A stretch of DNA of 64,000 nucleotides, taken from positions 124,001 through 188,000 of the forward strand of contig MWDJ01000002.1 of the NCBI GenBank assembly GCA_002070505.1. Reading direction: 5' to 3'. The notes under the pieces are model-generated. The model saw only the letters and a list, made by a program, of their open reading frames with translations. It was not told the origin of the DNA and ran no database searches. The DNA comes from Bacteroidetes bacterium ADurb.Bin145 (lineage in GTDB: Bacteria; Bacteroidota; Bacteroidia; Bacteroidales; VadinHA17). Shown here in pieces: positions 2,520-23,561 of this stretch. The position numbers were made by a program, and so were the translations under genes. The first letter of the stretch is position 1; each line of letters opens with the position of its first letter.

Positions 2520-2540
2520 TATGATGAATTATTTTAGTTG

Positions 2541-3701: not shown

Positions 3702-3712
3702 TGTTCAGGATA

Positions 3713-5042: not shown

Positions 5043-5044
5043 AG

Positions 5045-5386
5045 CTATTCTCCCTCTATGCTTTTAATGAATAATTCCTTACCCTGTATTATTTCGAGAT
5101 CAGTTGAACCGCATGACCGGCATTCAAATTTATTGTCATTTACGATAAAATCATTCCCGCATGCCGCGCATCTCATCTTCACCGGTGTTATTTCAATATT
5201 TATTTCTGCCTCTTCAGCCGCTGTCCCCGATACTGCTTCCCTGAAAGCAAAGCGGAAGATATCTGGCACTATCTGGATCATCTGACCGAAAGTGATATTA
5301 ACATCAGAGACTTTCGATAAACCTCCATTTTTTGCCTCTTCCAGCACTATTGCCGCCAGGTCTTCAGCTATTCTCAGTTCATGCAT
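5045..5386 (-). CDS. hypA: Hydrogenase maturation nickel metallochaperone HypA
   Basis: This 113-residue protein begins MHEL, where the N-terminal amine and His2 form the nickel site. It carries the zinc ribbon CAACG...CRSCG near the C-terminus. It hands nickel to HypB and the hydrogenase large subunit. It lies 14 bp after hypE and 2 bp before hypB. The length matches the family. Confidence 0.94.
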   Translation of the reverse strand: MHELRIAEDLAAIVLEEAKNGGLSKVSDVNITFGQMIQIVPDIFRFAFREAVSGTAAEEAEINIEITPVKMRCAACGNDFIVNDNKFECRSCGSTDLEIIQGKELFIKSIEGE

Positions 5387-5400
5387 AATTTCCGGTCATC

Positions 5401-7489: not shown

Positions 7490-7719
7490 TGATTATCAAT
7501 ATTGTTTGAATCATGGATCTCCTTAAATATTCTTATTGTCTCCTCAGCTTCTTCCTCACTTATCTTCTGAATAGCAAATCCGGCATGGAGCAAAACATAG
7601 TCTCCCGGTTTTGCATCTTCAATCATTTGCAACCCTGCTTTGAATATTGTTCCACCGGCCGAGACTTCTGCTATACTATCTTTGATCGATATTATTTTTA
7701 CTGGTATACTTAGACACAT
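7486..7719 (-). CDS. hypC: Hydrogenase assembly chaperone HypC
   Basis: This 77-residue HypC/HybG/HupF-family chaperone starts MCLSIPVKI. The essential Cys2 binds the iron centre and the immature large subunit. The rest is the expected small beta-barrel plus a C-terminal helix. It shares one base with the hypF stop and four with the hypD start. One HypC is present for one [NiFe] enzyme in this window. Confidence 0.95.
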   Translation of the reverse strand: MCLSIPVKIISIKDSIAEVSAGGTIFKAGLQMIEDAKPGDYVLLHAGFAIQKISEEEAEETIRIFKEIHDSNNIDNQ

Positions 7720-9953: not shown

Positions 9954-10633
9954 TATTTCATATCCTTGTATAATAACTCAAGATTTTTGGATCCTTCAGC
10001 AGTGATCTGTTTATGTACGCAGTAAATAACACTTTCAAGTTCATCGCAAAGGTTCACATTGTTAATTATCACATCCGGCGGCACCTTCAGAAGAACCGGG
10101 GCAAAGTTGACGATTCCTTTGATCCCGAACCGAACAAGCTGATCAGTGACTTCCTGGGCTGAGATCTCAGGCACTGCCAATATTGCAACTTTTACCTTGA
10201 AGCGGTCTATGATCTCTTTAAGCCTTGCAGGTGTGTAAACCGGGATGTCAGATCTTACTTTCTGTTTGAAGGGATCTATATCAAAAGTAGCAACGATATT
10301 CATGTTACGCTGAACGAACCTGCTGTATTTTGAAAGAGCTATTCCCAGGTTTCCCATCCCTACCAGGACAATATTATGGTCTTTGTTGCGATGGAAAATA
10401 TTCTCCATTATTTCCAGCAACTCGTTTATCTCATAGCCTCCGCGCTTATTCCCTTTTATACTGAATTCGGAGAAGTCCTTGCGCACCTGTTCAGAAGATA
10501 CGCCCGTTTCATTGGCAAGGGTATAGGAAAATACTTTTTCAACACCCATCAGCTTCAGTCTGACAAGGCAGGCTCTGTAAAGAAATATTCTTTTCAGACT
10601 GTTTTTAATTACATATTTTGTGAATCTTTTCAC
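9950..10633 (-). CDS. rex: Redox-sensing transcriptional repressor Rex
   Basis: This 227-residue repressor has an N-terminal winged-helix (LANETGVSSEQVRKDFSEF) and a C-terminal Rossmann domain with VLVGMGNLGIALSKY that senses NADH/NAD+. Rex leaves DNA when NADH is high and typically controls hydrogenases and fermentation genes. It starts with GTG 10633 and heads the hypFCDEAB operon, overlapping hypF by 4 bp. A strong Rex palindrome covers its own start codon and another covers the start of the divergent hydrogenase operon, indicating autoregulation and direct control of hydrogenase expression. Confidence 0.93.
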   Translation of the reverse strand: MKRFTKYVIKNSLKRIFLYRACLVRLKLMGVEKVFSYTLANETGVSSEQVRKDFSEFSIKGNKRGGYEINELLEIMENIFHRNKDHNIVLVGMGNLGIALSKYSRFVQRNMNIVATFDIDPFKQKVRSDIPVYTPARLKEIIDRFKVKVAILAVPEISAQEVTDQLVRFGIKGIVNFAPVLLKVPPDVIINNVNLCDELESVIYCVHKQITAEGSKNLELLYKDMKY

Positions 10634-10635
10634 AT
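10618..10635. promoter_or_regulatory. Rex operator overlapping the rex start codon
   Basis: The sequence TTGTGAATCTTTTCACAT has perfect 6-bp arms, TGTGAA-n4-TTCACA. It matches the Rex consensus TTGTGAAnnnnTTCACAA at all but the last base. It covers the GTG start of rex on the minus strand, so bound Rex could block transcription of rex-hyp. Confidence 0.82.
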
Positions 10636-10801: not shown

Positions 10802-10819
10802 ATGTGAATCTTATCACAT
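10802..10819. promoter_or_regulatory. Rex operator at the membrane hydrogenase operon
   Basis: ATGTGAATCTTATCACAT contains TGTGA-n6-TCACA and is nearly identical to the operator at rex (10618-10635). It ends one base before the ATG at 10821 and overlaps the predicted transcription start, a position suited to repression. The arrangement leaves no Shine-Dalgarno sequence for the first gene. Confidence 0.78.
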
Positions 10820-10820
10820 T

Positions 10821-11813
10821 ATGCAAAACCTCAGGTGCATAAATAAAGAAGACTGGAATAGTACCCTTAAAAGGTTATTAGTGTCACATCTGATTTATGC
10901 TACAACTGAAAATAATTCCCATCTGGATTATGAATTAATTACTGAAGCGGATGTAAATCGCATATCTTATAACAGACCTAAACCAGTTACACCTTTAAAG
11001 AGCTTCTTTTTGCCTGTCAGTGAGAATGTGACAGCAACAAACAGTCATGGGAAACCCAGAATTATTATTGGCACGCCAAATTGTGATACTGAGGGCTTAG
11101 GTATCCTTGATGAAATGTACCTTGATAAAGATTTTAAAGACATATTCTACAAAAGCAAAAGAGAGAATACGATCTTAATCTCAGCCGACTGTTTTGGGAT
11201 ATTGGAACATTGTCACTGCCTTTCTTATGGGATCAAACCCTATTCAAACGGTATCGCCGATTTGTCAATCCTTGAAAAAGGCGGCATGATGATATTCAGG
11301 ATATTAAGTACGAAAGGGGAACAATTTTTAAATACATTAACTGCCGTAGTCATTCCTGAGGATAAGAATATAGTGGAATTCATTGAAGAAAAACATTCAT
11401 CGACCGAATCTTTGCTTAAAGAGGCCAATAAGGGGCTCCCTGATTATAAGAGAACAGGATCATTAGTATCTGAAGCAAAAAAAGAGATCTGGAAGAAATA
11501 CTCAGCTAAATGTGTTTCATGCGGGGCATGTGCAACAATATGCCCGACCTGTACATGCTTTCTCCTTATAGATAAGCCCGGATTTGAAAAGATCAAACAG
11601 CTTGACGCTTGTCAATACCCCGGTTTTGAAAGGGTTGCGGGTGGCGAGGATGGCCTGGCTGAATTACCTCAAAGGTTCCGGAACAGGTATATGTGTAAAT
11701 ATGTCTGGAAACCGGAAAGGTTCAATTCAGTTGCCTGCACCGGATGCGGACGATGCATTGAAGCCTGCATTGGGAAAATAAATAAGAATGAATTATTCAT
11801 GGAACTTGCGTAA
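10821..11813 (+). CDS. Sulfhydrogenase beta-type / AsrA-like 4Fe-4S dicluster protein
   Basis: This 330-residue protein belongs to the family of sulfhydrogenase beta subunits and anaerobic sulfite reductase subunit A, which link a flavoprotein to downstream Fe-S centres. The C-terminal third has two [4Fe-4S] motifs, CVSCGACATICPTC and CTGCGRCIEACIG. The N-terminal two thirds carry further scattered Cys. An in-frame ATG at 10770 exists, but the predicted promoter and the Rex site place the start at ATG 10821. It is the first gene of the operon, 9 bp before the gamma-type subunit. No soluble hydrogenase alpha or delta partner follows; instead a membrane hydrogenase does. Confidence 0.82.
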   Translation: MQNLRCINKEDWNSTLKRLLVSHLIYATTENNSHLDYELITEADVNRISYNRPKPVTPLKSFFLPVSENVTATNSHGKPRIIIGTPNCDTEGLGILDEMYLDKDFKDIFYKSKRENTILISADCFGILEHCHCLSYGIKPYSNGIADLSILEKGGMMIFRILSTKGEQFLNTLTAVVIPEDKNIVEFIEEKHSSTESLLKEANKGLPDYKRTGSLVSEAKKEIWKKYSAKCVSCGACATICPTCTCFLLIDKPGFEKIKQLDACQYPGFERVAGGEDGLAELPQRFRNRYMCKYVWKPERFNSVACTGCGRCIEACIGKINKNELFMELA

Positions 11814-11822
11814 GATTCTTTT

Positions 11823-12647
11823 ATGAATACTGACGGGAATATATATAAGCCAATTAAAGCGAAACTGACAGAAGTGATAGAGGAATCACCACTGATAAAA
11901 ACATTTGTGCTTGTCCCCGAAAAGGAATTTTCATTCAAAACCGGTCAGTTCATTGAATTATCTGTCGACAGCATAGGTGAAGCTCCCTTCACTCCTTCGT
12001 CCTCACCGGTAATCACTGATAAGCTTGAAGTGACTGTTATGAAAACCGGTTATGTAACCGAATATATGCATGAACTTAAACCCGGTGCATATATGGGCAT
12101 AAGAGGCCCGTTCGGCAGAGGTTACCCGGTAGAGAAATTTTTTGGTAAAGAAGTGCTGATACTTGGTGGTGGCTGCGGACTTGCACCTATCCGTTCACTG
12201 CTTTATGCTCTTGAACACTATAAAGACAAGATCCTTAAAGTGATCCTTTGCTACGGTTCAAAGACTCCCTCCGATTGTATCTATAAGCCTTTGTTCAACA
12301 GGTTGAACTCCATTGATAAGTTTGAAGCATATCGTACCGTTGACAAGGCAGATGAGGAATGGAACGAATCTGTAGGAGTTGCCACAGTTCTGCTCGATAA
12401 AGTAAAGGTCAACATTGAAAACTCTGTTGCAGTAATATGCGGACCTCCAATAATGATGAAGTTTGGTACGAAAAGGATCCTGGAAATGGGATACAGGGAC
12501 GAACAGGTATACCTATCGATGGAAAAGAACATGTCATGCGGCCTCGGCAAATGCGGCCATTGTATGATGGGAAAATATTTTGTATGCAAAGACGGGCCTG
12601 TTTTCACATATAACGAAATCAAGGATCAACCTGATATCTGGAACTGA
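11823..12647 (+). CDS. Sulfhydrogenase gamma-type / AsrB-like FAD-NAD(P)-[2Fe-2S] reductase
   Basis: This 274-residue protein belongs to the ferredoxin-NADP reductase superfamily. The order is a FAD-binding barrel (about 10-100, with KTGQFIEL), an NAD(P)-binding domain (ILGGGCGLAPIRSLL, then CGPPIMMKF), and a C-terminal [2Fe-2S] site CGLGKCGHC plus a later Cys. It is the expected entry or exit point for NAD(P)H. Pairing with the preceding beta-type subunit is seen in soluble sulfhydrogenases and in Nfn-like enzymes. Here the pair heads a membrane hydrogenase operon. NADH versus NADPH cannot be decided by eye. Confidence 0.87.
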   Translation: MNTDGNIYKPIKAKLTEVIEESPLIKTFVLVPEKEFSFKTGQFIELSVDSIGEAPFTPSSSPVITDKLEVTVMKTGYVTEYMHELKPGAYMGIRGPFGRGYPVEKFFGKEVLILGGGCGLAPIRSLLYALEHYKDKILKVILCYGSKTPSDCIYKPLFNRLNSIDKFEAYRTVDKADEEWNESVGVATVLLDKVKVNIENSVAVICGPPIMMKFGTKRILEMGYRDEQVYLSMEKNMSCGLGKCGHCMMGKYFVCKDGPVFTYNEIKDQPDIWN

Positions 12648-12648
12648 A

Positions 12649-13146
12649 ATGGCTCAGAGTATTCTCATAGATATGATAAAACTGCGTGCAGCAATGTCAG
12701 ACAATCCTGACCAGCTGCTGCCTGAGGCATTTTACTATAATTCGGTCAATTTAAACGGATTGAAGACTCTCAGGGAACTGGCCACATTCAGATTTACATG
12801 CAGGCGATGCGAGGATGCACCATGCGTTGCTGTATGTCCTGCAGATGCCCTTGAGAAAGATGAAGAAGGTATTATAACGCGACATACAAACCTGTGTGTT
12901 TCGTGCAAATCGTGTGTTACTATCTGCCCCTTTGGGACAATGATGACAGATTTCTTCAAGCATCACAGGAACAGGGATCTGTTCTATGATCTGAAGGATG
13001 AGAATGACCTGAAAAGGTTCATTGCAGCATCGCCTGAAGGGACAGTTATGATCACCGATCAGGATGAGTCGCCTGAAAAGAATATCTACAGGCTCAACGA
13101 AAAAGTACTTATAAGGGATTATTTATATACGACTGAAAATCTGTAA
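12649..13146 (+). CDS. HycB/CooF-like 4Fe-4S electron-transfer protein
   Basis: This 165-residue ferredoxin-like protein carries CRRCEDAPCVAVCP and CVSCKSCVTICP, two [4Fe-4S] sites of the HycB/CooF kind. ATG 12649 lies one base after the gamma-subunit stop and was chosen over an in-frame upstream ATG at 12580, inside that gene. It plausibly bridges the NAD(P)H module and the membrane hydrogenase. It overlaps no neighbour and ends 1 bp before the NuoH-like gene. Confidence 0.82.
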   Translation: MAQSILIDMIKLRAAMSDNPDQLLPEAFYYNSVNLNGLKTLRELATFRFTCRRCEDAPCVAVCPADALEKDEEGIITRHTNLCVSCKSCVTICPFGTMMTDFFKHHRNRDLFYDLKDENDLKRFIAASPEGTVMITDQDESPEKNIYRLNEKVLIRDYLYTTENL

Positions 13147-13147
13147 C

Positions 13148-14080
13148 ATGGCGCTGAACCTTTTATATTTCTTTGTTTTTCCCGGCTTGCTCTTTGTTGC
13201 AACTGCAGGAGCATTACTGTCGTGGTTCGACAGGAAAATAACTGCCAGGGTTCAGTTCAGAAAAGGGCCTCCCCTGCTCCAGCCTTTCTACGATTTCTTT
13301 AAACTGCTGCTTGTCAAGGAGACAATTTTACCAAAACACGGATCGCCATTCATATTCCTTCTTGCTCCGGTCTTTGCTGTGTTTGGGGCCACAATGGCCG
13401 GGGTATTCATACTGCTGCCTCTTTTTAATATATCGACAGGTTTCAAAGGCGACCTTATTGTGATATTTTATCTTCTTACAATACCGTCATTCTCATACAT
13501 AACTGGTTCACTGGCTTCCGGTAATCCACTTGCTGCAGTCGGCAGTTCAAGGGAAATGAAGCTTATACTCAGCTATGAGCTTACCTTCCTCCTGCTGATC
13601 GCTGCTATCATTATGAAAGCCGGACAGAAATTTGACCTCAATTCAGTGATCACTATACAGCAGGAAGGAACTCCATTCATTCGAAGCATTTCAGGTGTCC
13701 TCCTGTTTATAGTCGGGATCTTTTGTGTTCAGGCAAAACTGGCTTTAGTACCATTTGATATGCCTGAAGCCGAAACAGAGATATCTGAAGGGATCTTTAT
13801 TGAGTATTCCGGATCGGCTTATGCTATGATCAAGCTTGCAAAGTACATAATGTTCTTTGTACTCCCGGCTTTCCTTGTTGCACTGCTGATGGGCGGATTC
13901 CGCCTCGAAGGAATAAATATTCTTTGGGCAGTACTGAAAATAATAGGTACGGTGCTGCTTCTTACTCTTATAAGGAACACCAATCCAAGGATAAAAATAA
14001 AACAGGCTGTCAGCTTTTTCATGATATGGATGAATCTGCTGGCCGTAATAGCAATTGTATTAATAGTATTCGGTTATTAA
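13148..14080 (+). CDS. Membrane anchor subunit of group 4 [NiFe] hydrogenase (NuoH/MbhM/HycD-like)
   Basis: This 310-residue protein with about eight transmembrane helices belongs to the respiratory complex I subunit 1 family. It connects the hydrogenase head to the ion-pumping membrane arm. Conserved blocks are SWFDRKITARVQFRKGPPLLQ and the acidic loop PFDMPEAETEISEG, the hallmark of NuoH-like proteins near the quinone or proton funnel. It overlaps nothing and lies 4 bp before the small-subunit gene. Confidence 0.92.
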   Translation: MALNLLYFFVFPGLLFVATAGALLSWFDRKITARVQFRKGPPLLQPFYDFFKLLLVKETILPKHGSPFIFLLAPVFAVFGATMAGVFILLPLFNISTGFKGDLIVIFYLLTIPSFSYITGSLASGNPLAAVGSSREMKLILSYELTFLLLIAAIIMKAGQKFDLNSVITIQQEGTPFIRSISGVLLFIVGIFCVQAKLALVPFDMPEAETEISEGIFIEYSGSAYAMIKLAKYIMFFVLPAFLVALLMGGFRLEGINILWAVLKIIGTVLLLTLIRNTNPRIKIKQAVSFFMIWMNLLAVIAIVLIVFGY

Positions 14081-14084
14081 ATTT

Positions 14085-14504
14085 TTGATTGTGGGTTTTA
14101 AGGATTATTGCTTCAGAAAATCGTTATGGGTCTTTCACTTCGGAGGAGCTTCCTGCAATAATTGCGATATTGAGATCCTTGATTGTCTCACACCAAGGCA
14201 CGACCTGGAACGTTTCGGGATCCTTCTTGTGGGCAGTGTCAGGCATGCTGATGTGCTTCTTGTCAACGGTTCAATAAATATGCGCGATAAAGACCGGCTG
14301 CTGGAGATATATAACCAGGCGCCGAAGCCGATACTTGTAGTGGCAATAGGGGCTTGCGGCTGTACCGGAGGGATATTTGCCGAAGGGATCACTTTTGCGG
14401 GTCCGGTCGATAAGATCATTCCTGTCGATGCATATATCCCCGGATGTCCGCCAAAACCGGAGGCGATAATTGCAGGGATTGTTAAGCTGGCAGGCAGGAA
14501 ATAA
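14085..14504 (+). CDS. Group 4 [NiFe] hydrogenase small subunit (NuoB/MbhJ/EchC-like)
   Basis: This 139-residue NuoB-like subunit holds one proximal [4Fe-4S] cluster next to the [NiFe] site. Visible ligands are ASCNNCD, the CGCTGG motif and PGCPPKPE. The family is normally 140-170 residues. No ATG is available upstream of FRKSLWVFHFGGASC; starts are TTG 14085 or GTG 14091, 4 to 10 bp after the previous stop. Both are weak, suggesting coupled translation. Confidence 0.92.
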   Translation: MIVGFKDYCFRKSLWVFHFGGASCNNCDIEILDCLTPRHDLERFGILLVGSVRHADVLLVNGSINMRDKDRLLEIYNQAPKPILVVAIGACGCTGGIFAEGITFAGPVDKIIPVDAYIPGCPPKPEAIIAGIVKLAGRK

Positions 14505-14541
14505 GTAGTGAGCGGTGAGCGATGAGCGGTGAGCAATGAGT
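14505..14541. repeat. Low-complexity GAGCGGTGAGC repeat inside the hydrogenase operon
   Basis: The spacer between the small-subunit gene and the NuoC-like gene contains imperfect tandem units of GAGCGGTGAGC(G/A)ATGAGC. The same motif recurs at 40412-40424 and 40484-40531. It carries no ORF and does not interrupt a gene. Confidence 0.75.
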
Positions 14542-14560
14542 GAAGATATAAGATTACAAA

Positions 14561-14998
14561 ATGGATGTAAGGCAGGTTATAGAGAATTTTGAGAAGAGCT
14601 TTATGGCAGACATTATTGAAACTGTCAGGAAGAATGAGAAACGTATGATAATTACGATTAAACCTGAGGCTATCCTGAGAATAGCACATTATCTCTATAA
14701 AACTGCCGGCTTACGGTTTATCATAGCTTCTGGCCTTCACACCAGGAGGGGATTTGAAATACATTATCATTTCAGCAAGGATGATATAGGTCTCATCCTT
14801 AATTTACATGTGATTCTCGATAAGGATAAACCGGAGATCGAATCCTTATCAAATATGTTCAGTGCTTCAAACTGGATAGAAAGAGAGATGCACGAGTTGT
14901 TCGGGATCAATTTCCTTAACCATCCGGAACAGGAAAAGCTGTTATCTGAAGGCAACTGGGCAGAAGGTGTTTATCCATACAGAAAAGAGTTTAAATAA
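14561..14998 (+). CDS. NuoC-like subunit of group 4 [NiFe] hydrogenase (MbhK/EchD)
   Basis: This is a 145-residue member of the complex I 30-kDa family. The diagnostic block ASNWIEREMHELFGINFLNHP followed by PYRKEF at the C-terminus matches NuoC/EchD proteins. It has no cofactor and supports the large subunit. The gene lies 56 bp after the small-subunit gene, separated by a repeat, and its end precedes the large-subunit ATG by 13 bp. Confidence 0.9.
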   Translation: MDVRQVIENFEKSFMADIIETVRKNEKRMIITIKPEAILRIAHYLYKTAGLRFIIASGLHTRRGFEIHYHFSKDDIGLILNLHVILDKDKPEIESLSNMFSASNWIEREMHELFGINFLNHPEQEKLLSEGNWAEGVYPYRKEFK

Positions 14999-15011
14999 GA
15001 ACCTCAGACAA

Positions 15012-16214
15012 ATGAGTAAAAAGACTCTAATACCGGTCGGTCCTTATCATCCTCTTCAGGAGGAGCCTGAACTTTTCAAGCTCTACTGCGACGGTGAAAT
15101 TGTAAAGGATATCAAATGGGAAACAGGGTATAACCACCGGAGCATAGAAAAACTGAGTGAATCGAAAACATACGAACAGGTGTTCTTCCTGGTGGAAAGA
15201 ATTTGCGGGATATGTTCCACCTCTCACCCTTTTGCCTTTGCGAATGCTGTTGAAGAGATCGTCGGGGTTGAAATAACAAACAGGGCAAAATACATCAGGT
15301 CGATCATTGCAGAGCTGGAACGGATCCACAGCCATCTTCTCTGGGTCGGTCTGGCGGGGCATTTCCTTGGTTATAACACCGTGTTCATGTGGGCGTGGAA
15401 GTATCGTGAACCAATACTGGATCTTTTTGAGATGATCACAGGCAACCGTAACAGCTATGCAATGTTCCGCGTCGGAGGGGTTAGAAGAGACATTGAGAAC
15501 AGTAAGATACAGACTATTCAGAAGATATTAAGCGAATGCAGGAAGAAGAATGACCTTCTCACGGGAGCAGTAATGGATGACCCGGTCATTCATGCAAGGA
15601 CCAAAGGTGTTGGTATACTGACAAAACAGGATGTGCTTGACTATTGTGCTGTCGGACCTACTGCCAGGGCATCAGGAGTTGCTATTGACATAAGGAAGGA
15701 TGATCCCTATGCTGCCTACCCGCTTGTTAACTGGAAGGTCATCACTGCTGAAGCCGGGGATGTGTTTGCGAAAGCGGAAGTCCGGCTGCTCGAGATGTAC
15801 GAATCGTTCTCAATAATAGAACAATGTCTGGAAGGATTGAAGAAAGAAAAGGAAGGAGATATAACAGTAAGGATCACGGAAATACCGGAAGGTGTCGGAC
15901 ACGGCCGGGCTGAAGCCCCCAGGGGAGAGGTTTTCCACTTCGTTGTATCTGATGGTTCAAATTCTCCGGCCAGGCATAAGATAAGGGCTCCGAGTTATGT
16001 CAACATTGCAACATTCAGGAAATCCTGTATTGGACAGACAATTGCAGATGCCACAATCACCCTGGCAGCTGTCGATCCCTGCTATTGCTGCACCGAAAGA
16101 ATGGCATCGGTATATGATATGAGCTCCGGGGAAAGGATAATGAATGCGAATGAACTTATAAATCTTTCATCATCGAAGACATCTGAATTAAAGAAACAAA
16201 TGGACAGGAAATGA
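15012..16214 (+). CDS. Group 4 [NiFe] hydrogenase large subunit (NuoD/MbhL/EchE-like)
   Basis: This 400-residue catalytic subunit reduces protons or oxidises H2. All four nickel-binding Cys are present: RICGIC near residues 63-68 and DPCYCC near 355-360, so it is a true hydrogenase and not a complex I relative. After CTER363 there is a 37-residue tail that should be removed by the maturation protease encoded at 22640. The start is ATG 15012 (MSKKTLIPVG); a longer in-frame ATG at 14967 lies within the previous gene. It overlaps the next gene by 4 bp. Confidence 0.95.
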   Translation: MSKKTLIPVGPYHPLQEEPELFKLYCDGEIVKDIKWETGYNHRSIEKLSESKTYEQVFFLVERICGICSTSHPFAFANAVEEIVGVEITNRAKYIRSIIAELERIHSHLLWVGLAGHFLGYNTVFMWAWKYREPILDLFEMITGNRNSYAMFRVGGVRRDIENSKIQTIQKILSECRKKNDLLTGAVMDDPVIHARTKGVGILTKQDVLDYCAVGPTARASGVAIDIRKDDPYAAYPLVNWKVITAEAGDVFAKAEVRLLEMYESFSIIEQCLEGLKKEKEGDITVRITEIPEGVGHGRAEAPRGEVFHFVVSDGSNSPARHKIRAPSYVNIATFRKSCIGQTIADATITLAAVDPCYCCTERMASVYDMSSGERIMNANELINLSSSKTSELKKQMDRK

Positions 16215-18097
16215 ATGATTTTATCTCCATAGCATCTCAACCTTCGGTCAGTGCAGCAGTGCAGTTCATGATCCTTCTGCCTCTTTTGGCCGGCCTTGCA
16301 TTATTCTGCATCCCGGAGAAACTAAGACTTTATAAAGGGCTTATTACCCTGGTAGTAAGTATACTTACTGCATATCAGGCTGTTATTGTTTACGGAACAG
16401 AAAATCTTGTCCTCTGTCTGCCGGGATTGCCGGGAACGACTCAGGGTTCTGAACTGATAAATGATGCCTGCAGATATATTACTTTCAACCTGGATAAGCT
16501 CAGTGAACTGGTACTTATCTTCATCAGCCTCTTTGCATTCCTTATCATCCTGTATTCTCTCATATATATGCGGGAAGGAAAGGTAAGGAACTATTATGCA
16601 TATTTTCTCATCACCCTGGGATGTTCATACGGAGCAGTGCTTTCTGATAACCTGCTTCTGTTTCTTATATTCTGGGGATTGCTCGGACTCACCTTATATA
16701 AGCTGATCCATGGACATGATGAAGAGAGCTCTGCCACGGCGAAAAAGACTCTTATACTGATAGGAGCATCTGACAGCATAATGATAATAGGCATAGCATT
16801 AATCTGGAGAATAACCGGATCACTGAGCATTAGCGGTGTATCTGTTCCAACCACCAATATACTTACCATTATTGCATTTCTTGCTTTGCTTACCGGTAGT
16901 TTTACAAAAGCCGGTGCTTTTCCTTTTCATACCTGGGTGCCTGATTATGCAAAAGATGCACCTGCTTCTTCATCAGCTTATATGCCGGCTTCGCTTGATA
17001 AATTACTTGGAATATACTTCCTTGCCAGAATTACGATGAATATATTTGAGCTGAGTGACGGACTAAGACTGCTTCTGCTTTCGGTAGGAGTAATCTCAAT
17101 AATCAGTGCTGTGATGATGGCCCTTATACAGCATAATTACAAACGGCTCCTGGGTTTTCATGCAGTTTCCCAGGTAGGATATATGATTCTCGGCTTCGGA
17201 TTAGGTTCAATGATAGGTATTGCTGCGGGACTGTTCCACATGGTAAACAATGCTATTTACAAAAGCGGGCTGTTCCTTTCTGCTGGCTGTGTCGGATACC
17301 GGACGGGGAAGGATGAAATAGAGGATCTCGGAGGGCTTTCGAAAATGATGCCGGTAACCTTCATAACATCGCTGATATTTGCAATGTCGATCTCAGGCGT
17401 CCCTCCTTTCAATGGTTTTGCATCGAAATGGATGATATACCAGGGGATAATTGAATTCGGATCAGGTGCCGGTGCTGCGAACAAACTCTGGATACTCTGG
17501 CTTGCATTGGCTGTATTGGGTTCTGCTCTCACTCTTGCCAGCTTCATCAAATTCATTGGCGGGATTTTCCTGAGTCGCAGGAAGACAGAGTTTGAGAATG
17601 TCAAAGAGGTGCCAGCCCTTATGTGGCTTCCTCTGGCTGTTCTCGCTCTCCTGTGTATCCTGTTTGGTGTTTTTGCTACAAAGGTTGTTGTTCCGCGTCT
17701 CTTTATGCCCGTAAGCGGAACTTTTGAGTTCCCGGGGTTTTGGGATTCCTCCTTTGTATCCCTGCTGGTGATTATCTCACTTGCATTGGGATTCCTGATA
17801 TATGCGGCACTTAATCTTAAGAAGTTCAGGAGAGAAGACAGTTTTATCGGTGGTGAAAAGATGCAGGAGCAGGCTGCGTATCCCACTCCTGAATTTTACA
17901 AGACCTTCACCGAATTCAGGCTGTTATCGGTTATTTATAAAAAGGCAGAGGAGAAGTGGTTCGACATTTACGATCTGTCTAAACGATTTGTTCTGTGGAC
18001 AAGTCATTTACTCAGTGAAACTCATGCAGGGCTTCTGCCCGGGTACGTTGTCTGGGCTTGTGCCGGAATTATTATTATGTTGATGATTATGATATAA
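16211..18097 (+). CDS. NuoL/HyfB-like proton- or sodium-antiporter subunit
   Basis: This 628-residue membrane protein has about 14-16 helices and belongs to the proton-conducting membrane transporter (NuoL/M/N, MrpA/D) family. Conserved segments include KAGAFPFHTWVPDYAKDAPASSSAYMPASL and FHMVNNAIYKSGLFLSAG, with the discontinuous-helix Lys and His residues used in ion translocation. It is one of two antiporter-like subunits in this operon; the other is the MrpD-like gene at 19424. The ATG start sits in an ATGA overlap with the large-subunit stop. Confidence 0.9.
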   Translation: MNDFISIASQPSVSAAVQFMILLPLLAGLALFCIPEKLRLYKGLITLVVSILTAYQAVIVYGTENLVLCLPGLPGTTQGSELINDACRYITFNLDKLSELVLIFISLFAFLIILYSLIYMREGKVRNYYAYFLITLGCSYGAVLSDNLLLFLIFWGLLGLTLYKLIHGHDEESSATAKKTLILIGASDSIMIIGIALIWRITGSLSISGVSVPTTNILTIIAFLALLTGSFTKAGAFPFHTWVPDYAKDAPASSSAYMPASLDKLLGIYFLARITMNIFELSDGLRLLLLSVGVISIISAVMMALIQHNYKRLLGFHAVSQVGYMILGFGLGSMIGIAAGLFHMVNNAIYKSGLFLSAGCVGYRTGKDEIEDLGGLSKMMPVTFITSLIFAMSISGVPPFNGFASKWMIYQGIIEFGSGAGAANKLWILWLALAVLGSALTLASFIKFIGGIFLSRRKTEFENVKEVPALMWLPLAVLALLCILFGVFATKVVVPRLFMPVSGTFEFPGFWDSSFVSLLVIISLALGFLIYAALNLKKFRREDSFIGGEKMQEQAAYPTPEFYKTFTEFRLLSVIYKKAEEKWFDIYDLSKRFVLWTSHLLSETHAGLLPGYVVWACAGIIIMLMIMI

Positions 18098-18117
18098 ACA
18101 ACTGAAACTGAAGTTAA

Positions 18118-18645
18118 ATGGAGGTGGCTATATCCATTATTACGGGATTGATGATCATAGGGGCTCTTTATGCAATTCATGCAAAAGACCTCCTTTCAGC
18201 GGTTATTGCCTGCGGAATTGTAGGATACGGGCTTGTTATATGCTTTCTTCTTCTTAAAGCTCCTGACCTTGCAATCGTACAGATCGTTGTGGAAACCATA
18301 ACCCTGATCATCATGGTTGCTGTAGTTCTCGACAGTTCAAGGGAAGAAAGGTATTTAAAACCCGACCCGCAGGGATACATGTCAATTGTTACTGCAGTCC
18401 TATTGATAGTAGTCCTGTTTTATTTCTTCAGATTGGCTGCGGCTAGCCTTGATGTATTCGGTAACAGCACCTTGCGGATGGCGGATGCATATTTAGAAAG
18501 AGCCACTGACAGAACCGGAAGTGCAAATCTTGTAACCGGTGTTGTCTTCGATTTCAGAGGCTATGATACTCTTGGTGAAGCTACTGTGCTCGTAACAGCA
18601 GTACTTGGAATTCTTACAATATTGAGGATCAAAGGCAAGAAGTAA
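18118..18645 (+). CDS. MbhD-MbhE fusion (MrpA C-terminal-like membrane subunit)
   Basis: This 175-residue membrane protein combines an N-terminal DUF4040/MbhD-like part (about 1-100, with LKAPDLAIVQIVVETITL) and a C-terminal MbhE-like part (about 130-175, with NLVTGVVFDFRGYDTLGEAT). In Pyrococcus-type Mbh these are separate small genes, and in MrpA they form the C-terminal end of one large protein. It is part of the sodium/proton path of Mrp-linked hydrogenases. It lies 20 bp after the NuoL-like gene. Confidence 0.85.
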   Translation: MEVAISIITGLMIIGALYAIHAKDLLSAVIACGIVGYGLVICFLLLKAPDLAIVQIVVETITLIIMVAVVLDSSREERYLKPDPQGYMSIVTAVLLIVVLFYFFRLAAASLDVFGNSTLRMADAYLERATDRTGSANLVTGVVFDFRGYDTLGEATVLVTAVLGILTILRIKGKK

Positions 18646-18647
18646 TT

Positions 18648-19085
18648 ATGAAAGGGATGACTGTCATAGTAAAGAAAACGACCCAGCTGATAGCCGGCAT
18701 GGTATTTCTTTATGGTATATATGTGATAATACATGGTCATCTTACTCCCGGAGGAGGTTTTGCGGGTGGTGTAGTGATGGCTGGCTCATTTATTTTACTG
18801 ATACTTGCTTTCGGAAGCGATTTCATGCATCTTACTAAAGAAGAATCAGGGTCGACACTATATGAGAACCTTGCAATACTTGTCGTTGTATTCCTGTCAG
18901 TATCAGGATTGCTCTACGGGGCCCGGATCTTTTTCCTGAACTGGCTTCCGAAAGGCACTGCCGGCGAGCTTGTAAGTGCAGGTATGCTGCCATTGTACAA
19001 TATTTTTGTCGGGATTGAAGTGGCTTCATCAATCCTTACGATCTTTCTTGCGCTTGTAATTTTTAAAGAGGAGACACTGGAATGA
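18648..19085 (+). CDS. mrpB: MrpB/MbhF-like Na+/H+ antiporter subunit
   Basis: This 145-residue membrane protein has about four helices. The motif HGHLTPGGGFAGGVVMAGSF is characteristic of MrpB/MnhB and MbhF. It belongs to the ion-translocation module that couples hydrogenase turnover to a sodium or proton gradient. It lies 2 bp after the MbhDE fusion and overlaps mrpC by 4 bp. Confidence 0.92.
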   Translation: MKGMTVIVKKTTQLIAGMVFLYGIYVIIHGHLTPGGGFAGGVVMAGSFILLILAFGSDFMHLTKEESGSTLYENLAILVVVFLSVSGLLYGARIFFLNWLPKGTAGELVSAGMLPLYNIFVGIEVASSILTIFLALVIFKEETLE

Positions 19086-19420
19086 TAGTATACTGGTTAT
19101 GTTTCATTTTGTTCCTTGTCGGACTTTACGGTGTAATAACCAAAAGGAACCTCATCAAGATAGCCATATCTCTTTCGATAATGGAATTCAGTACTTTTCT
19201 GTTTTTCACACTTATCGGTTTCAGGGAGGGAGGGGTAGCCCCTATCGTTGATCCGGCTGATCCTGTCAAAACATATGTTGATCCTCTGCCTCAGGCAATG
19301 GTATTAACTGCCATTGTGATCGGTCTTGCCACAACAGCTATGCTTATGTCAGTAATAATCAGGCTGTACAGAAAATACGGGACATTTGATATCAGGGAAA
19401 TTAAAAACTTGAAAGGATAG
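19082..19420 (+). CDS. mrpC: MrpC/MbhG-like (NuoK-like) antiporter subunit
   Basis: This 112-residue protein has three helices and belongs to the NuoK/MrpC family. LPQAMVLTAIVIGLATTAMLM is the conserved core. It overlaps the preceding gene by 4 bp and precedes mrpD by 3 bp, the standard Mrp order. Confidence 0.92.
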   Translation: MIVYWLCFILFLVGLYGVITKRNLIKIAISLSIMEFSTFLFFTLIGFREGGVAPIVDPADPVKTYVDPLPQAMVLTAIVIGLATTAMLMSVIIRLYRKYGTFDIREIKNLKG

Positions 19421-19423
19421 ATC

Positions 19424-20962
19424 ATGAATCCGCTGATACCCTTATTTGTCATAATACCACTGGCCGGCGCCTTCCTGATAATGATAATCGGGAAATTCCT
19501 ATCAGGCTTTGGCAGATATTTTACAAGCGCCATCCTGCTGTCTCTTGTTGTTTTCAGTATCTATTCACTGTTTACGGGTTCAGGAACCCTTTCGTTATAC
19601 AAGGTTGGGGGATGGGAACCAGTGAACAGGATACCAATAGGCATATACATGGTGATGGATGGATTCACAGTAATAGTGCTCTGCATAATTAACATTATCG
19701 GATTTCTTTCAGCATTTTATTCGATCTCATATATAAAAAGGTATACTTCTGAAAATTTCTACTACGCCCTGTTCTGTCTTATGACAGCAGGAATGAATGG
19801 TGTGGTACTGAGCGGAGATCTGTTCAATATATTTGTCTTTATGGAGATCTCGGTCATTGCTGCATACGCGCTTGTTGCTTTCGGAGTTGAAAAGAATGAG
19901 CTGGAAGCTACTTTCAAATATCAGGTTCTGGGATGTCTTGCCTCCTTTATGATATTAATTGGCATAGGATTCATATACTGGAAAGCAAAAACTCTGAACA
20001 TAGCTGATATAAAAGAAGTATTGAGCAGTGGTTATGACCGGACATATTATCTTGTTGTACAGATCCTTATCTTAAGCGGGTTTGGACTGAAAGCTGCAAT
20101 AATACCGTTCCATGCATGGCTTCCTGACGCACATTCATCGGCCCCCTCTCCCATTTCAGCAATGCTTTCTGGCGTACTGATCAAAGCAGTAGGTATCTAT
20201 GTGATAATAAGGCTGTTCTTCAATATGTTCGAATTAAGTGAGAACATGTCAGTCCTGATCACAACTCTTGGTGCATTATCGATGGTCATCGGAGTCTTTC
20301 TTGCCATCGGCCAGTGGGATATAAAGAGGCTTCTGGCTTATCACAGTATCAGCCAGATGGGATATGTTGTACTGTCGGTTGGTGCGGGTATGATACTTGT
20401 CGCTCAGGGAGAAAAGCCTGAAATAGCGACTCTTGCAATTGCGGGCGGGATCTTTCATCTTGTCAATCATGCGGTTTTCAAAGGTTTGTTATTCCTTAAT
20501 GCAGGTGCGATTGAATATACCATCGGTACCCGTGATCTCAAGGAAATGGGCGGTCTGGCTAAGCAGATGCCTGCTACTTCGGCTACATCGTTCATTGCCT
20601 CAATGTCAATATCGGGTATACCGCCTTTTAACGGTTTCTTCAGCAAGCTTATCATAATAATTGCATGCGTTATGGCAAAATTCTACCTGCTGGCCGCTCT
20701 TGCTGTTCTTGTAAGCATAATTACTCTGGCGTCATTCCTGAAATTCCAGCGTTATGCCTTTTATAACAAGACTGACAGGGGGAGGGAAAAAACAATAAAG
20801 GAGGTCCCGTTCCCCATGCTGTTCAGCATGGTGATAATGAGTTTACTGTGTGTGTTGCTAAGCCTTCTTGCAATACCTGATATCAGGGATACGATCCTTG
20901 GCCCTGCAATCGATATCCTTATGGATCCTGTAAAATATTCAACTCAAATTATCGGAATTTAA
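19424..20962 (+). CDS. mrpD: MrpD/MbhH-like Na+/H+ antiporter subunit
   Basis: This 512-residue antiporter-like membrane protein has about 14 helices. Diagnostic blocks are FVFMEISVIAAYALV with its conserved Glu, LKAAIIPFHAWLPDAHSSAPSPISAMLSG with Lys and His, and FHLVNHAVFKGLLFLNAGA. It forms the second ion-pumping module besides the NuoL-like subunit. It abuts mrpE with no gap. Confidence 0.92.
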   Translation: MNPLIPLFVIIPLAGAFLIMIIGKFLSGFGRYFTSAILLSLVVFSIYSLFTGSGTLSLYKVGGWEPVNRIPIGIYMVMDGFTVIVLCIINIIGFLSAFYSISYIKRYTSENFYYALFCLMTAGMNGVVLSGDLFNIFVFMEISVIAAYALVAFGVEKNELEATFKYQVLGCLASFMILIGIGFIYWKAKTLNIADIKEVLSSGYDRTYYLVVQILILSGFGLKAAIIPFHAWLPDAHSSAPSPISAMLSGVLIKAVGIYVIIRLFFNMFELSENMSVLITTLGALSMVIGVFLAIGQWDIKRLLAYHSISQMGYVVLSVGAGMILVAQGEKPEIATLAIAGGIFHLVNHAVFKGLLFLNAGAIEYTIGTRDLKEMGGLAKQMPATSATSFIASMSISGIPPFNGFFSKLIIIIACVMAKFYLLAALAVLVSIITLASFLKFQRYAFYNKTDRGREKTIKEVPFPMLFSMVIMSLLCVLLSLLAIPDIRDTILGPAIDILMDPVKYSTQIIGI

Positions 20963-21448
20963 ATGAGGCACGTAACAGTTTTCATATTATCGCTGATCTT
21001 CTGGCTGCTTATTACATTCAGATTTACTGTTCCGAATATTATTGTTGGATCTGTGGCCTCACTGATCTGTTCACTGATTTTTACAAGGTTCTTCATAAAA
21101 AATGTTTATAAGATACTCCAGCCTCATCGCTATTACTGGTTCCTGATTTATCTTACAGTATTTATCTGGGAATGTATCAAGGCCAATTTTGATGTCGCAT
21201 ACAGGGTGCTTCATCCTGCTATGCCTATCCGTCCGGGAATTGTTAAAGTAAGGATGGAATTGAAATCCCAACTCGCCAGAACTCTGCTGGCGAATTCGAT
21301 AACAATGACACCAGGTACTATCTCGGTTGATATTATCGGAGATGAATTGTTCGTGCATTGGATATATGTCAGGTCTGAAGATCCTGAAGTATATGGCAGG
21401 CTGATTACCGGCAAATTTGAAAAATACATTAAAAGAATCATTGAATGA
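20963..21448 (+). CDS. mrpE: MrpE/MbhA-like antiporter subunit
   Basis: This 161-residue protein has two to three N-terminal helices and a soluble C-terminal domain. The segment LLANSITMTPGTISVDIIGD is the signature of the MrpE family. It starts directly after the mrpD stop and overlaps mrpF by 4 bp. Confidence 0.92.
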   Translation: MRHVTVFILSLIFWLLITFRFTVPNIIVGSVASLICSLIFTRFFIKNVYKILQPHRYYWFLIYLTVFIWECIKANFDVAYRVLHPAMPIRPGIVKVRMELKSQLARTLLANSITMTPGTISVDIIGDELFVHWIYVRSEDPEVYGRLITGKFEKYIKRIIE

Positions 21449-21711
21449 CTGAGTGGCTGAACATATTGCTTTATATACAGATCGGGCTCAGCGGCGTTTG
21501 TTTGTACAGGATAATACGCGGTCCGACGATTCCTGACCGGATGGTTGGCATTGATATCTTCGGAATCCTTGTGGTAGGGATATGTGCCATCATTTCCATC
21601 CAGACTGAAAAATCATTCATACTTGATATAGGTATTGCGTGGATAATACTGAGTTTCATAGGAACATTAACACTTGCAAAATATCTTACGGGCAAAAAAT
21701 TGAATGAGTAA
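21445..21711 (+). CDS. mrpF: MrpF/MbhB-like antiporter subunit
   Basis: This 88-residue, three-helix protein contains RIIRGPTIPDRMVGIDIFG, the typical MrpF motif. It overlaps both neighbours (4 bp with mrpE, 8 bp with mrpG), indicating translational coupling in the Mrp part of the operon. Confidence 0.92.
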   Translation: MTEWLNILLYIQIGLSGVCLYRIIRGPTIPDRMVGIDIFGILVVGICAIISIQTEKSFILDIGIAWIILSFIGTLTLAKYLTGKKLNE

Positions 21712-22030
21712 TATGGTCACTATTATCTTAATATGTATTGGTGTGTTATTCAACATCTTCGGATGTATAGGACTGATCCGCCTCCCGGATGTTTATAACA
21801 GGCTGCAATCAGCCACCAAATGCGTCACTCTTGGTTGTTGCAGTATCCTGCTCGGTGTGTTGTTCCATTTTGGTATCGGAGATGCAGGATTCAAGGCGTT
21901 GTTTGCAATACCAATAATTTTCTTCAGCTCAACAGTCGCAGCTCATGCCCTCATAAGAGGAGCATATCATTTCGGTGCGAAACTTGATAAAAGAACCGTG
22001 AAAGACGATTATAAGGAGGCTGTAAAATGA
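21704..22030 (+). CDS. mrpG: MrpG/MbhC-like antiporter subunit
   Basis: This 108-residue, three-helix protein has IGLIRLPDVYNRLQSATKCVTLG, the MrpG/PhaG signature. It completes the mrpBCDEFG set. The stop overlaps the start of the following ferredoxin gene by 4 bp. Confidence 0.92.
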   Translation: MSNMVTIILICIGVLFNIFGCIGLIRLPDVYNRLQSATKCVTLGCCSILLGVLFHFGIGDAGFKALFAIPIIFFSSTVAAHALIRGAYHFGAKLDKRTVKDDYKEAVK

Positions 22031-22635
22031 AGTATCCCAAACTGAGAGAGCTCAAAGAGGCCATTATATCACTTGTAACACCGGCTTATACATCCGGATT
22101 CCCGAAAGAGCCCCATGTCCCGTTTGAGAAGTTCAGGGGAAAACCTGTTGTGGATAACGATAATTGCGTGGGATGTGAAACATGTGCAAATGTGTGCCCT
22201 CCATACGCAATAACATTCACCGACGACAGGGAAAAAGGGATCAGAACCATAAAAAGAGATTACGGGAAATGTATTTTTTGCGGATTATGCGAGGAGCATT
22301 GCATCACTCAGAAAGGAGTAAAATTATCTGATAAGTTATATGATATCGCTGCGTTTGACCGGCAGAATAATGTTGAGTATCAATACAAGGAACTGCTTAT
22401 ATGTAAAAACTGCGGAGCTATAATCACAACAAAGGAGCACCTTTTTTATATGCACCGCAAACTCGGTCCGAGGGCATTCTCTTCAATCCTTAATCTTAAT
22501 ATGCTTAACCAGAAGCTAAAACTGGCCGAAGGGCAGGATGTTGACGTGGAGATCAGGGATAAGCTAAAAAGAAAAGATATGTTCAATATCTTATGTCCTA
22601 ACTGCCTCAGACAGGTACTTGTAAAATATCTCTGA
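22027..22635 (+). CDS. NuoI/MbhN-like 2[4Fe-4S] ferredoxin subunit
   Basis: This 202-residue protein has two [4Fe-4S] motifs, CVGCETCANVCPP and CIFCGLCEEHC, near residues 47-90, as in the NuoI/EchF/MbhN subunit that passes electrons to the small subunit. The C-terminal half adds CKNCGA and CPNCL pairs, which may form a zinc or extra Fe-S site not found in minimal MbhN. It is placed after the Mrp genes, away from the rest of the hydrogenase head. Confidence 0.88.
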   Translation: MKYPKLRELKEAIISLVTPAYTSGFPKEPHVPFEKFRGKPVVDNDNCVGCETCANVCPPYAITFTDDREKGIRTIKRDYGKCIFCGLCEEHCITQKGVKLSDKLYDIAAFDRQNNVEYQYKELLICKNCGAIITTKEHLFYMHRKLGPRAFSSILNLNMLNQKLKLAEGQDVDVEIRDKLKRKDMFNILCPNCLRQVLVKYL

Positions 22636-22639
22636 AAAG

Positions 22640-23092
22640 GTGCAGGATACTCTCGACACCATTCTAAAACAGGCTGACAGGAACATACTCTTTGTCGGTA
22701 TCGGTAATGTCCTTAAAACAGATGATGGTGCAGGTGTTTACATAAGCCAGAGAATAATCAAAACCGACAGGATCTCTGCCCTTACAGTCGAAACCGGCAT
22801 CGAAAATCACATTGGAAAAATTAACAGCCTTAACCCTGACATCCTGGTACTGGTTGATTGTGTTGACCTCAAATCCTCACCCGGAACATATAAACTATTA
22901 ACATTAAATCAGATACAGGATCTAACATTTAATACTCATAATATCTCACTAAAAAGACTCACTGATTTTTTTAAAATGGAAGTTTATATTCTGGGAATTC
23001 AGCCGAAAAAAATTGATTTTGGTGAAAATATTTCGTATCTTGTAAAGAATATGGCTAATAAGATAATCAAACAAATAAACAACAGGAGGTAG
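22640..23092 (+). CDS. Hydrogenase maturation endopeptidase (HycI/HyaD family)
   Basis: This 150-residue protease is predicted to cleave the C-terminal tail of the large subunit after nickel insertion. The start region VGIGNVLKTDDGAGVYI contains the conserved Asp that probes nickel, and LVLVDCVDL-like and NTHNISLKRL segments match HycI. It begins with GTG 22640, 4 bp after the ferredoxin stop. Its target in this window is the 37-residue tail of the NiFe subunit. Confidence 0.9.
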   Translation: MQDTLDTILKQADRNILFVGIGNVLKTDDGAGVYISQRIIKTDRISALTVETGIENHIGKINSLNPDILVLVDCVDLKSSPGTYKLLTLNQIQDLTFNTHNISLKRLTDFFKMEVYILGIQPKKIDFGENISYLVKNMANKIIKQINNRR

Positions 23093-23094
23093 CT

Positions 23095-23514
23095 ATGGCA
23101 GTAGAATATCTTTGTAAAGTCTGCAGGGGTCACCTGAACGTTAAGACCTCAATTATCCTTAGTGCAACTAATCTGGCTGACCGGACACAACGAGGCTTGG
23201 TCTATCTGAATCCTGAGCTCGGGAACTATACAAAAACAACCCATCCTTCATTTGACATAAAAGAAGGAGAGGAATATATCTTCACCTGCCCGATATGCGG
23301 AGCCCAACTTAACAGTATGAAGTATCTCCACATGGTAAGGATCCTTATGATTGATGATACTGGTAAGGAATTCAACATATATTTCTCCGGTATCGGAGGT
23401 GAGAAGTGCACCTATAAGATCAGGGGGAACAAGGTTGAAAAGAAGGCAGGGCCTGATGTGAGGATTTATGATAAATATTTTGAGGTACCCGATGAGGACA
23501 GAAAATATCTCTGA
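23095..23514 (+). CDS. Unknown zinc-ribbon protein at the end of the hydrogenase operon
   Basis: This 139-residue cytoplasmic protein has two Cys pairs, CKVC near residue 7 and CPIC near residue 64, that could bind one zinc. The rest is predicted beta-rich, and a further Cys lies near residue 103. No known family is recognised. It lies 2 bp after the maturation protease, is the last gene before a terminator, and has an unusually strong Shine-Dalgarno sequence, AGGAGGT (23084-23090), in a genome where these are weak. The context suggests a hydrogenase-linked accessory or redox-stress protein, but that is inference. Confidence 0.75.
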   Translation: MAVEYLCKVCRGHLNVKTSIILSATNLADRTQRGLVYLNPELGNYTKTTHPSFDIKEGEEYIFTCPICGAQLNSMKYLHMVRILMIDDTGKEFNIYFSGIGGEKCTYKIRGNKVEKKAGPDVRIYDKYFEVPDEDRKYL

Positions 23515-23535: not shown

Positions 23536-23561
23536 AAGGGTGTTTATCTGACACCCTTTTT
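23536..23561 (+). terminator. Rho-independent terminator of the membrane hydrogenase operon
   Basis: AAGGGTGT (23536-23543) and ACACCCTT (23551-23558) form a perfect 8-bp stem with a 7-nt loop, followed by T residues. It lies 21 bp after the zinc-ribbon gene and closes the 12.7-kb operon. Confidence 0.85.

Follow-up and report, generated by a model that had tools for sequence, protein, structure and literature searches.

The 64,000-nucleotide stretch of DNA analysed here (the window; contig MWDJ01000002.1, positions 124,001 to 188,000) belongs to the draft genome of Bacteroidetes bacterium ADurb.Bin145 (3.95 Mb, 218 contigs, 92.5% complete), and its closest named relatives carry the labels Bacteroidales or other Bacteroidota. 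On the forward strand, positions 10821–23514 hold a tight operon of 18 genes, in which subunits resembling the beta and gamma subunits of sulfhydrogenases precede a group 4 [NiFe] hydrogenase with Mrp-type membrane subunits. We consider it probable, at roughly 0.6, that the operon encodes one membrane complex in which electron transfer between NAD(P)H and the [NiFe] site is coupled to ion flow and which disposes of NADH as H2. While gene content, conservation, cofactor ligands and operators are directly observed, complex formation, the electron path, the choice of NADH over NADPH, the direction, the ion and the stoichiometry are what we infer here from sequence. Two features are new: a divergent rex gene with two perfect Rex operators at the operon, not reported in an earlier sequence-only reading of this DNA, and an antiporter-like subunit without the glutamate of transmembrane helix 5 (TM5).

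Operon layout and the NAD(P)H-type input module

All the genes that the sequence-only reading had placed in the operon were found on the forward strand by family searches, except that the small Mrp subunits and the MbhD/E-like one were named from gene order and conservation only. Conservation was followed in named loci, i.e. the 80 best of 423 related stretches, each labelled as Bacteroidota; upstream counts refer to the 63 with at least 4.7 kb 5′ of the large subunit, and downstream counts to the 54 with at least 8.6 kb 3′ of it. The order of the genes, all on the + strand, is as follows.

10821–11813, +: beta-like Fe-S subunit (HydB/ShyB/AsrA type); model and PDB matches, 16 conserved Cys
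11823–12647, +: gamma-like FAD/NAD(P)/[2Fe-2S] subunit (HydG/AsrB type); models, PDB, Pfam
12649–13146, +: HycB-like two-cluster ferredoxin, a putative linker; eight Cys, matches of HydN, formate dehydrogenase FDH3 beta and DmsB type
13148–14080, +: NuoH/MbhM/HycD-like membrane subunit; NuoH models below cut-offs, acidic residues kept
14085–14504, +: NuoB/MbhJ-like small subunit; PF01058, NF005012 above cut-off
14561–14998, +: NuoC/MbhK-like subunit; PF00329
15012–16214, +: [NiFe] large subunit, group 4; PF00346, PF00374
16211–18097, +: antiporter-like subunit of 628 aa (MrpA-N/HycC/NuoL type) without the TM5 Glu; PF00361, best PDB match MrpA 7qru_A
18118–18645, +: MbhD/E (MrpA-C) like; gene order, 54/54 loci
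18648–19085, +: MrpB-like; gene order, 53/54 loci
19082–19420, +: MrpC-like; gene order, 53/54 loci
19424–20962, +: MrpD/MbhH antiporter-like subunit, TM5 Glu kept; PF00361, PDB MbhH 6cfw_H at 1.2e-80
20963–21448, +: MrpE-like; gene order, 53/54 loci
21445–21711, +: MrpF-like; gene order, 53/54 loci
21704–22030, +: MrpG-like; gene order, 53/54 loci
22027–22635, +: NuoI/HycF-like ferredoxin with a C-terminal CxxC...CPxC; HycF 7z0s_F match
22640–23092, +: HycI-type hydrogenase maturation protease; TIGR00072, 81.3 bits against a cut-off of 47.45, 52/54 loci
23095–23514, +: protein of 139 aa with four invariant Cys; 44/54 loci, no family assigned
23536–23558, +: terminator-like hairpin of nine pairs with a T run, 3′ of the last gene

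Spacing between the genes ranges from an 8-base overlap to a 56-base gap, and the ATG at 10821 fits as the start of the beta-like gene. The gamma/HycB-like and HycB-like/NuoH-like junctions measure one base each and thus leave no room for a transcription break between 12647 and 13148, which the sequence-only reading had named as speaking against a single complex. As a class, terminator-like hairpins (13 found) are not above shuffled sequence (mean 10.3, standard deviation 3.2).

The beta-like protein matched the models ShyB (2e-39), AsrA (7e-34) and HydB, and the gamma-like protein PRK08345 (1.7e-60), AsrB (3.9e-60), ShyC and HydG, in all cases under the curated NCBIfam cut-offs. The closest solved chains are those of Pyrococcus furiosus sulfhydrogenase 1 (PDB 9nez; beta 9nez_B at 1.4e-29, gamma 9nez_C at 1.4e-47). 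Alignments for conservation drew on the 80 named loci, a further set of fetched regions and the window itself; identical copies were counted once, and copies outside 85–125% of the length of the window protein or with unread residues were excluded. In these, 16 cysteines of the beta-like subunit are invariant (71/71) and each faces a cysteine of sulfhydrogenase 1 beta. The gamma-like subunit has the Pfam domains NAD_binding_1, FAD_binding_6 and DHODB Fe-S, and its four [2Fe-2S] cysteines, aligned with those of sulfhydrogenase 1, are kept in 76/76. All eight cysteines of the HycB-like protein, whose PDB relatives are HycB3, HycB4 and HycB (7z0s_B), are kept in 78/78.

Sulfhydrogenases SHI and SHII of group 3b are soluble and work with a group 3 alpha and a delta subunit. 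The operon shares with them the beta and gamma subunits, under the cut-offs given above. The only match of the genome to PF00374 is the group 4 large subunit of the operon, so a group 3 alpha subunit was not found in this 92.5%-complete assembly; likewise, the single beta homologue at E 0.001 lies in the same operon. A separate partner for the beta/gamma pair elsewhere, raised by the sequence-only reading as a possible objection, was therefore not encountered in the assembly, where delta was not searched for, although one could lie in sequence that the assembly lacks.

The same reading had proposed following the adjacency of the beta-like, gamma-like and MbhL-like genes across genomes, and the adjacency is kept. 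The order beta-gamma-HycB-NuoH-B-C-D recurs across the related Bacteroidota loci, with beta and gamma 5′ of the hydrogenase in 62 of the 63 and the HycB-like gene in all 63. At 80% coverage beta was found in 61/63 and gamma in 62/63, the two short ones being interrupted by N runs; the apparent loss of beta and gamma in L075 and the short beta in L071 were rejected as real losses, as runs of 100 N break both. On the 3′ side, 53 of the 54 loci contain the Mrp and HycF-like genes, 52 contain HycI and 44 the 139-aa protein. Among 295 evenly sampled genomes of the order, a set partly overlapping with the 80 named loci, 18 had a close large subunit at 1e-80, ADurb.Bin145 included. Regions were examined from 16 of the other 17, and all 13 that reach far enough have beta and gamma; L147 has a partial gamma where its contig stops, and L148 and L153 are too short to reach. 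In L153 (G642:C87, 6283–11616) some 5 kb with a second NuoB-like piece, perhaps a mobile insertion, separate NuoB from NuoH.

A sample of the phylum comprised 395 genomes, of which only ADurb.Bin145 and five others belong to the order. Close large subunits were found there in two genomes, ADurb.Bin145 and G267; the latter belongs to a different class and shows the complete gene order, beta through HycI, with beta, gamma and the HycB-like protein at 36, 51 and 28% identity. Large-subunit matches at 32–39% occur in the class in 37 of the 395 genomes besides ADurb.Bin145. At 1e-50, 123 of the 395 gave a match to gamma, ADurb.Bin145 and G267 included, the other listed matches being at 32–42%.

The 139-aa protein at the end of the operon had no Pfam or NCBIfam match, and a fold search with its model (mean predicted local distance difference test score 82) gave a best PDB match at E 0.49 and none at E 0.001. 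Its four invariant cysteines are a possible metal site.

Rex operators and the direction of the reaction

Upstream of the operon the following features were recognized.

9950–10633, −: Rex, NADH-sensing repressor, divergent to the operon; NCBIfam NF003996, 211.7 bits against a cut-off of 138
10619–10634, unstranded: predicted Rex operator TGTGAATCTTTTCACA; exact match, overlaps the annotated rex start, place conserved
10803–10818, unstranded: predicted Rex operator TGTGAATCTTATCACA; exact match, directly 5′ of the beta ATG at 10821, conserved

As annotated, the frames of rex and beta lie 187 bases apart, with a perfect copy of TGTGA-N6-TCACA at each edge, and the operon thereby has the operator at its predicted promoter that marks members of the Rex regulon. 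As described in the literature, the Rex consensus is TTGTGAANNNNTTCACAA, with repression at low NADH/NAD+ and release at high (PMC5317091, PMC13077300). A rex gene lies near beta on the opposite strand in 53/63 loci, and an exact operator is present in 42 of 62 related loci, two or more in 36. Within 1.36 Mb of related locus DNA, 79 of the 82 exact operators fall between 450 bases upstream of beta and 40 bases inside it, which argues that expression of the operon probably follows NADH. Furthermore, a conserved TTTATA-like stretch precedes the beta-side operator in the window and in the 38 loci having it, so that this operator probably covers the transcription start. The whole ADurb.Bin145 genome has ten exact sites, eight of them outside this pair, and the one at C8:79964 sits inside an open reading frame. 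Weak Rex-like sites with at most one mismatch barely exceed expectation in the window (4 against 2.1), and therefore only the exact conserved pair was used.

The energetics were calculated from standard potentials for 37 °C and pH 7. Under these assumptions the formation of H2 from NADH costs about −2 to +10 kJ/mol at 10–100 Pa H2 and NADH/NAD of 0.1–1, a span too small for pumping. One ion entering at 150 mV is worth 14.5 kJ and would carry the reaction to roughly 1000 Pa. Since the reaction is near equilibrium at low H2, the enzyme most likely draws on ion influx to dispose of NADH; and since Rex would give way when NADH is high, the simplest account is that NADH leaves as H2 and that the gradient pays for it. 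The sequence-only reading had left the enzyme free to evolve or to oxidize H2. Evolution is the direction favoured by the Rex operators, and the two-way openness is narrowed to NADH disposal.

An H2-oxidizing, ion-pumping enzyme that produces NAD(P)H is a rather improbable alternative. The chemistry is reversible, and reduction of NAD+ by H2 is downhill at high H2, by 27 kJ/mol at 1 bar and NADH/NAD of 0.1; however, Rex would shut the operon at low NADH, exactly when reduction of NAD+ would be desired.

Hydrogenase core, membrane part and proposed mechanism

The catalytic core has the two CxxC NiFe motifs, the NuoB/C/H/I homologues and the antiporter-like membrane subunits of group 4 [NiFe] hydrogenases. 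In the large subunit the NiFe cysteines C65, C68, C357 and C360 are kept in 90/90, and a C-terminal tail extends beyond the second CxxC, the HycI-type protease being encoded in the same operon. The small subunit keeps C24, C27, C91 and C121 in 82/82, and acidic residues of the NuoH-like subunit are conserved. The closest solved relatives of the large subunit are Mbh 6cfw_L (277 bits) and HycE (268 bits), and its identity is 40% to P. furiosus Mbh and 36% to Escherichia coli formate hydrogenlyase 1 (FHL-1). In the large-subunit phylogeny, which the sequence-only reading had suggested, the 22 beta/gamma-linked rows, G267 among them, form one clade (99/99), the outside rows being only Mbh, HycE and the second enzyme of a genome of the window's genus (G504); the branches of these outside rows are very long, and Mbh is the single reference for group 4d.

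Of the two relatives compared, the NuoI-like subunit resembles HycF (7z0s_F, 71.9 bits) more than MbhN (47.9 bits). Its eight cluster cysteines are kept in 64/64, and those of the CxxC...CPxC tail in 64, 64, 63 and 63 of 64. In FHL the tail of HycF is described as binding a metal ion and contacting HycB (PMC9474812). Since the operon has this tail together with a HycB-like protein, i.e. the HycB/HycF-type link of FHL, its electron path appears to be built like that of FHL and its membrane part like that of the Mrp-Mbh kind. No formate dehydrogenase gene is present in the operon, to which the search for one was confined.

G504 also provides a natural contrast, having two group 4 enzymes, one with the NAD(P)H module and one without. 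Its second group 4 hydrogenase is 44% identical and has neither beta, gamma nor HycB-like genes. This second enzyme (L140, G504:C10) has three antiporter-like subunits and is 48% identical to Mbh, against 40% for the window enzyme. Several observations thus support reading the operon as a single complex with input of the NAD(P)H type: gene order, cofactor ligands, the HycB/HycF docking pair and the second G504 hydrogenase as contrast.

The operon carries two antiporter-like subunits, the 628-aa protein and MrpD. The glutamate of helix 5 in such subunits is described as strictly conserved (PMC9474812). At the corresponding position 156 of the 628-aa subunit there is Gly in 83/84 and Ser in 1/84, so that the glutamate is absent in 84/84; G267 has Gly. 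The residues K233, K264, H343, K351 and K406 of the same subunit are invariant. In MrpD the TM5 glutamate, E141, is kept in 72/72 rows after removal of eight paralogue rows: the Gly seen at this position in 8/80 rows came from the 628-aa paralogue of cut loci, and only the MrpD count omits these rows. The glutamate is also kept in E. coli HycC, in the three antiporter-like subunits of the second G504 hydrogenase and in five aligned PDB relatives. Loss of the glutamate from the 628-aa subunit might, as a guess, alter the ion stoichiometry.

In the proposed complex, the layout would resemble that of FHL, except that the beta/gamma pair would stand where FHL has its formate dehydrogenase. Hydride from NAD(P)H would pass to FAD in gamma, then through the [2Fe-2S] cluster and the clusters of beta to the HycB-like linker, and from there through the HycF-like and small subunits to the NiFe site, where H+ would be reduced to H2. 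The NuoH-like subunit, MrpD and the other Mrp subunits may link this electron flow to movement of Na+ or H+. High NADH would release Rex and allow expression; the enzyme, although reversible, would most likely rid the cell of NADH with the aid of ion influx, spending on H2 formation an ion gradient that Rnf may help to build. A narrower version is put forward tentatively: a ferredoxin-independent, non-bifurcating NADH hydrogenlyase, driven by the gradient and with its own Rex switch, in which absence of the TM5 glutamate has detuned one of the two antiporter-like subunits and thereby matched the ion cost to the narrow redox span.

Competing explanations, known systems and significance

Several observations weigh against the proposed disposal of NADH by this complex. 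Every named-model match of beta and gamma falls under curated cut-offs, and the pair therefore looks like a separate subfamily. NADPH is possible as the donor, as K147 of gamma, invariant in 76/76, stands opposite an Arg in the gamma subunit of sulfhydrogenase 1, a protein that NCBIfam names as NADPH-dependent. The genome has six H-cluster matches and one Rnf, so that NADH could leave by other routes. An exact operator is lacking in 20/62 loci and a neighbouring rex in 10/63 (two at contig ends, two at N runs, six with enough DNA), and no rex was found in G267 within the 20 kb examined; Rex control is thus frequent but not universal. Labilibacter sediminis CG51 (L069) and Marinilabiliaceae bacterium JC017 (L072), two carriers that judging by their names have been cultivated, have neither an exact operator nor a rex nearby. 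Moreover, Rex reports when the operon is on and not what the enzyme uses, and Rex boxes have also been described upstream of a CO-linked group 4 hydrogenase (PMC13077300).

An unlikely alternative, though one with points in its favour, is that the complex accepts ferredoxin and NAD(P)H jointly, by two inputs or by confurcation, with ferredoxin paying for the electrons of NADH. The HycF-like and HycB-like proteins could accept ferredoxin, and Rnf together with several [FeFe] hydrogenase genes suggests a ferredoxin metabolism. On the other hand, gamma is the sole flavoprotein recognized among the operon genes searched, and no sulfhydrogenase-type beta/gamma pair is known to bifurcate. It is very improbable that beta, gamma and the HycB-like protein are a separate soluble AsrAB-like enzyme merely co-transcribed with a ferredoxin-type Mbh: the AsrA and AsrB models do match, and a formate dehydrogenase type named FdhA-HydBC hints, as far as its description goes (PMC7382037), that such pairs are portable to other enzymes, but the one-base spacing, the order kept in 62/63 loci and in another class, the HycF-type tail and the lack of a further catalytic gene in the operon speak against it.

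The genes flanking the operon on the other side of rex also concern hydrogenases.

4386–9953, −: maturation genes hypF, hypC, hypD, hypE, hypA and hypB; HypA, B, D, E and F by family

HypC was assigned from its position and its HypC-type start MCLSIP only. Adjoining the hyp genes is a three-gene [FeFe] hydrogenase set (738–4180, −), whose large protein matches the model of the NADH-dependent group A6 (889 bits against a cut-off of 765). Elsewhere in the genome, three H-cluster domain matches and a second rex lie inside 10 kb (C5:7760–17648). In L057, L068 and L079 the NiFe operon is followed, in the same orientation, by [FeFe] hydrogenase hydC/B/A-like genes.

P. furiosus Mbh of group 4d is not known to have beta, gamma or HycB subunits and has one antiporter-like subunit fewer. 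The operon shares with it the NiFe core and the Mrp-type membrane subunits, MrpD by its PDB match to MbhH and the small ones by order (53/54); MbhN, with a chain of 139 aa, resembles the NuoI-like subunit of the window less than HycF does, and the large subunit of Mbh lies outside the clade in the above tree with its very long outside branches. Mbh is given as ferredoxin-coupled (PMC5037454), whereas the operon of the window includes the beta, gamma and HycB-like genes of an NAD(P) module. The link to E. coli FHL-1 (group 4a) is the HycB-HycF pair that joins an input module to the hydrogenase; FHL-1 differs, by the account in PMC9474812, in its FdhF input and in having no homologues of MbhA-G. 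With SHI the likeness extends to the alignment of the 16 beta cysteines and the [2Fe-2S] cysteines. The Parageobacillus nickel CO dehydrogenase/energy-converting hydrogenase (Ni-CODH/ECH) likewise joins a group 4 hydrogenase to an outside input enzyme and has a predicted upstream Rex box, but its input is CO dehydrogenase, its hydrogenase is of group 4a and it belongs to another phylum (PMC13077300).

The sequence-only reading knew of no complex with this gene set in Bacteroidota. No description from that phylum was found, as judged from titles and openings of abstracts, with most subscription journals and preprints outside the coverage; a similar region has, however, been reported from Saganbacteria. 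This region, RX5A, holds Mrp-like genes, a group 4 hydrogenase, a molybdopterin oxidoreductase, cooF, asrA and asrB; it was termed enigmatic and supposed to function like Mbh, and its nearest relatives were in Zixibacteria and Omnitrophica (PMC6349859). Compared by description only, it is alike in bringing together Mrp-like genes, a group 4 [NiFe] hydrogenase, cooF and asrA/asrB, and differs in its molybdopterin oxidoreductase, which is absent from the operon of the window; Rex does not figure in the passages on that region (PMC6349859). Mrp-linked hydrogenases of group 4g occur in Cloacimonadota and Omnitrophota, with ferredoxin taken as the donor (PMC8542988), and the role of the group has been given as undetermined (PMC5037454).

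If the proposed function is true, the operon encodes an undescribed way of turning surplus NADH into H2 gas. How fermenters make H2 from NADH is usually explained either by confurcation with ferredoxin or by a separate complex for reverse electron transport; one complex that passes the electrons of NADH to protons at the expense of the gradient would be another answer to this old question. The names of the relatives point to fens, lake sediments and digesters, where H2 feeds methanogens. The 628-aa subunit without its TM5 glutamate is a natural variant on which coupling in the complex I superfamily could be studied, and Mrp-linked group 4 hydrogenases of undetermined role would gain a testable donor.

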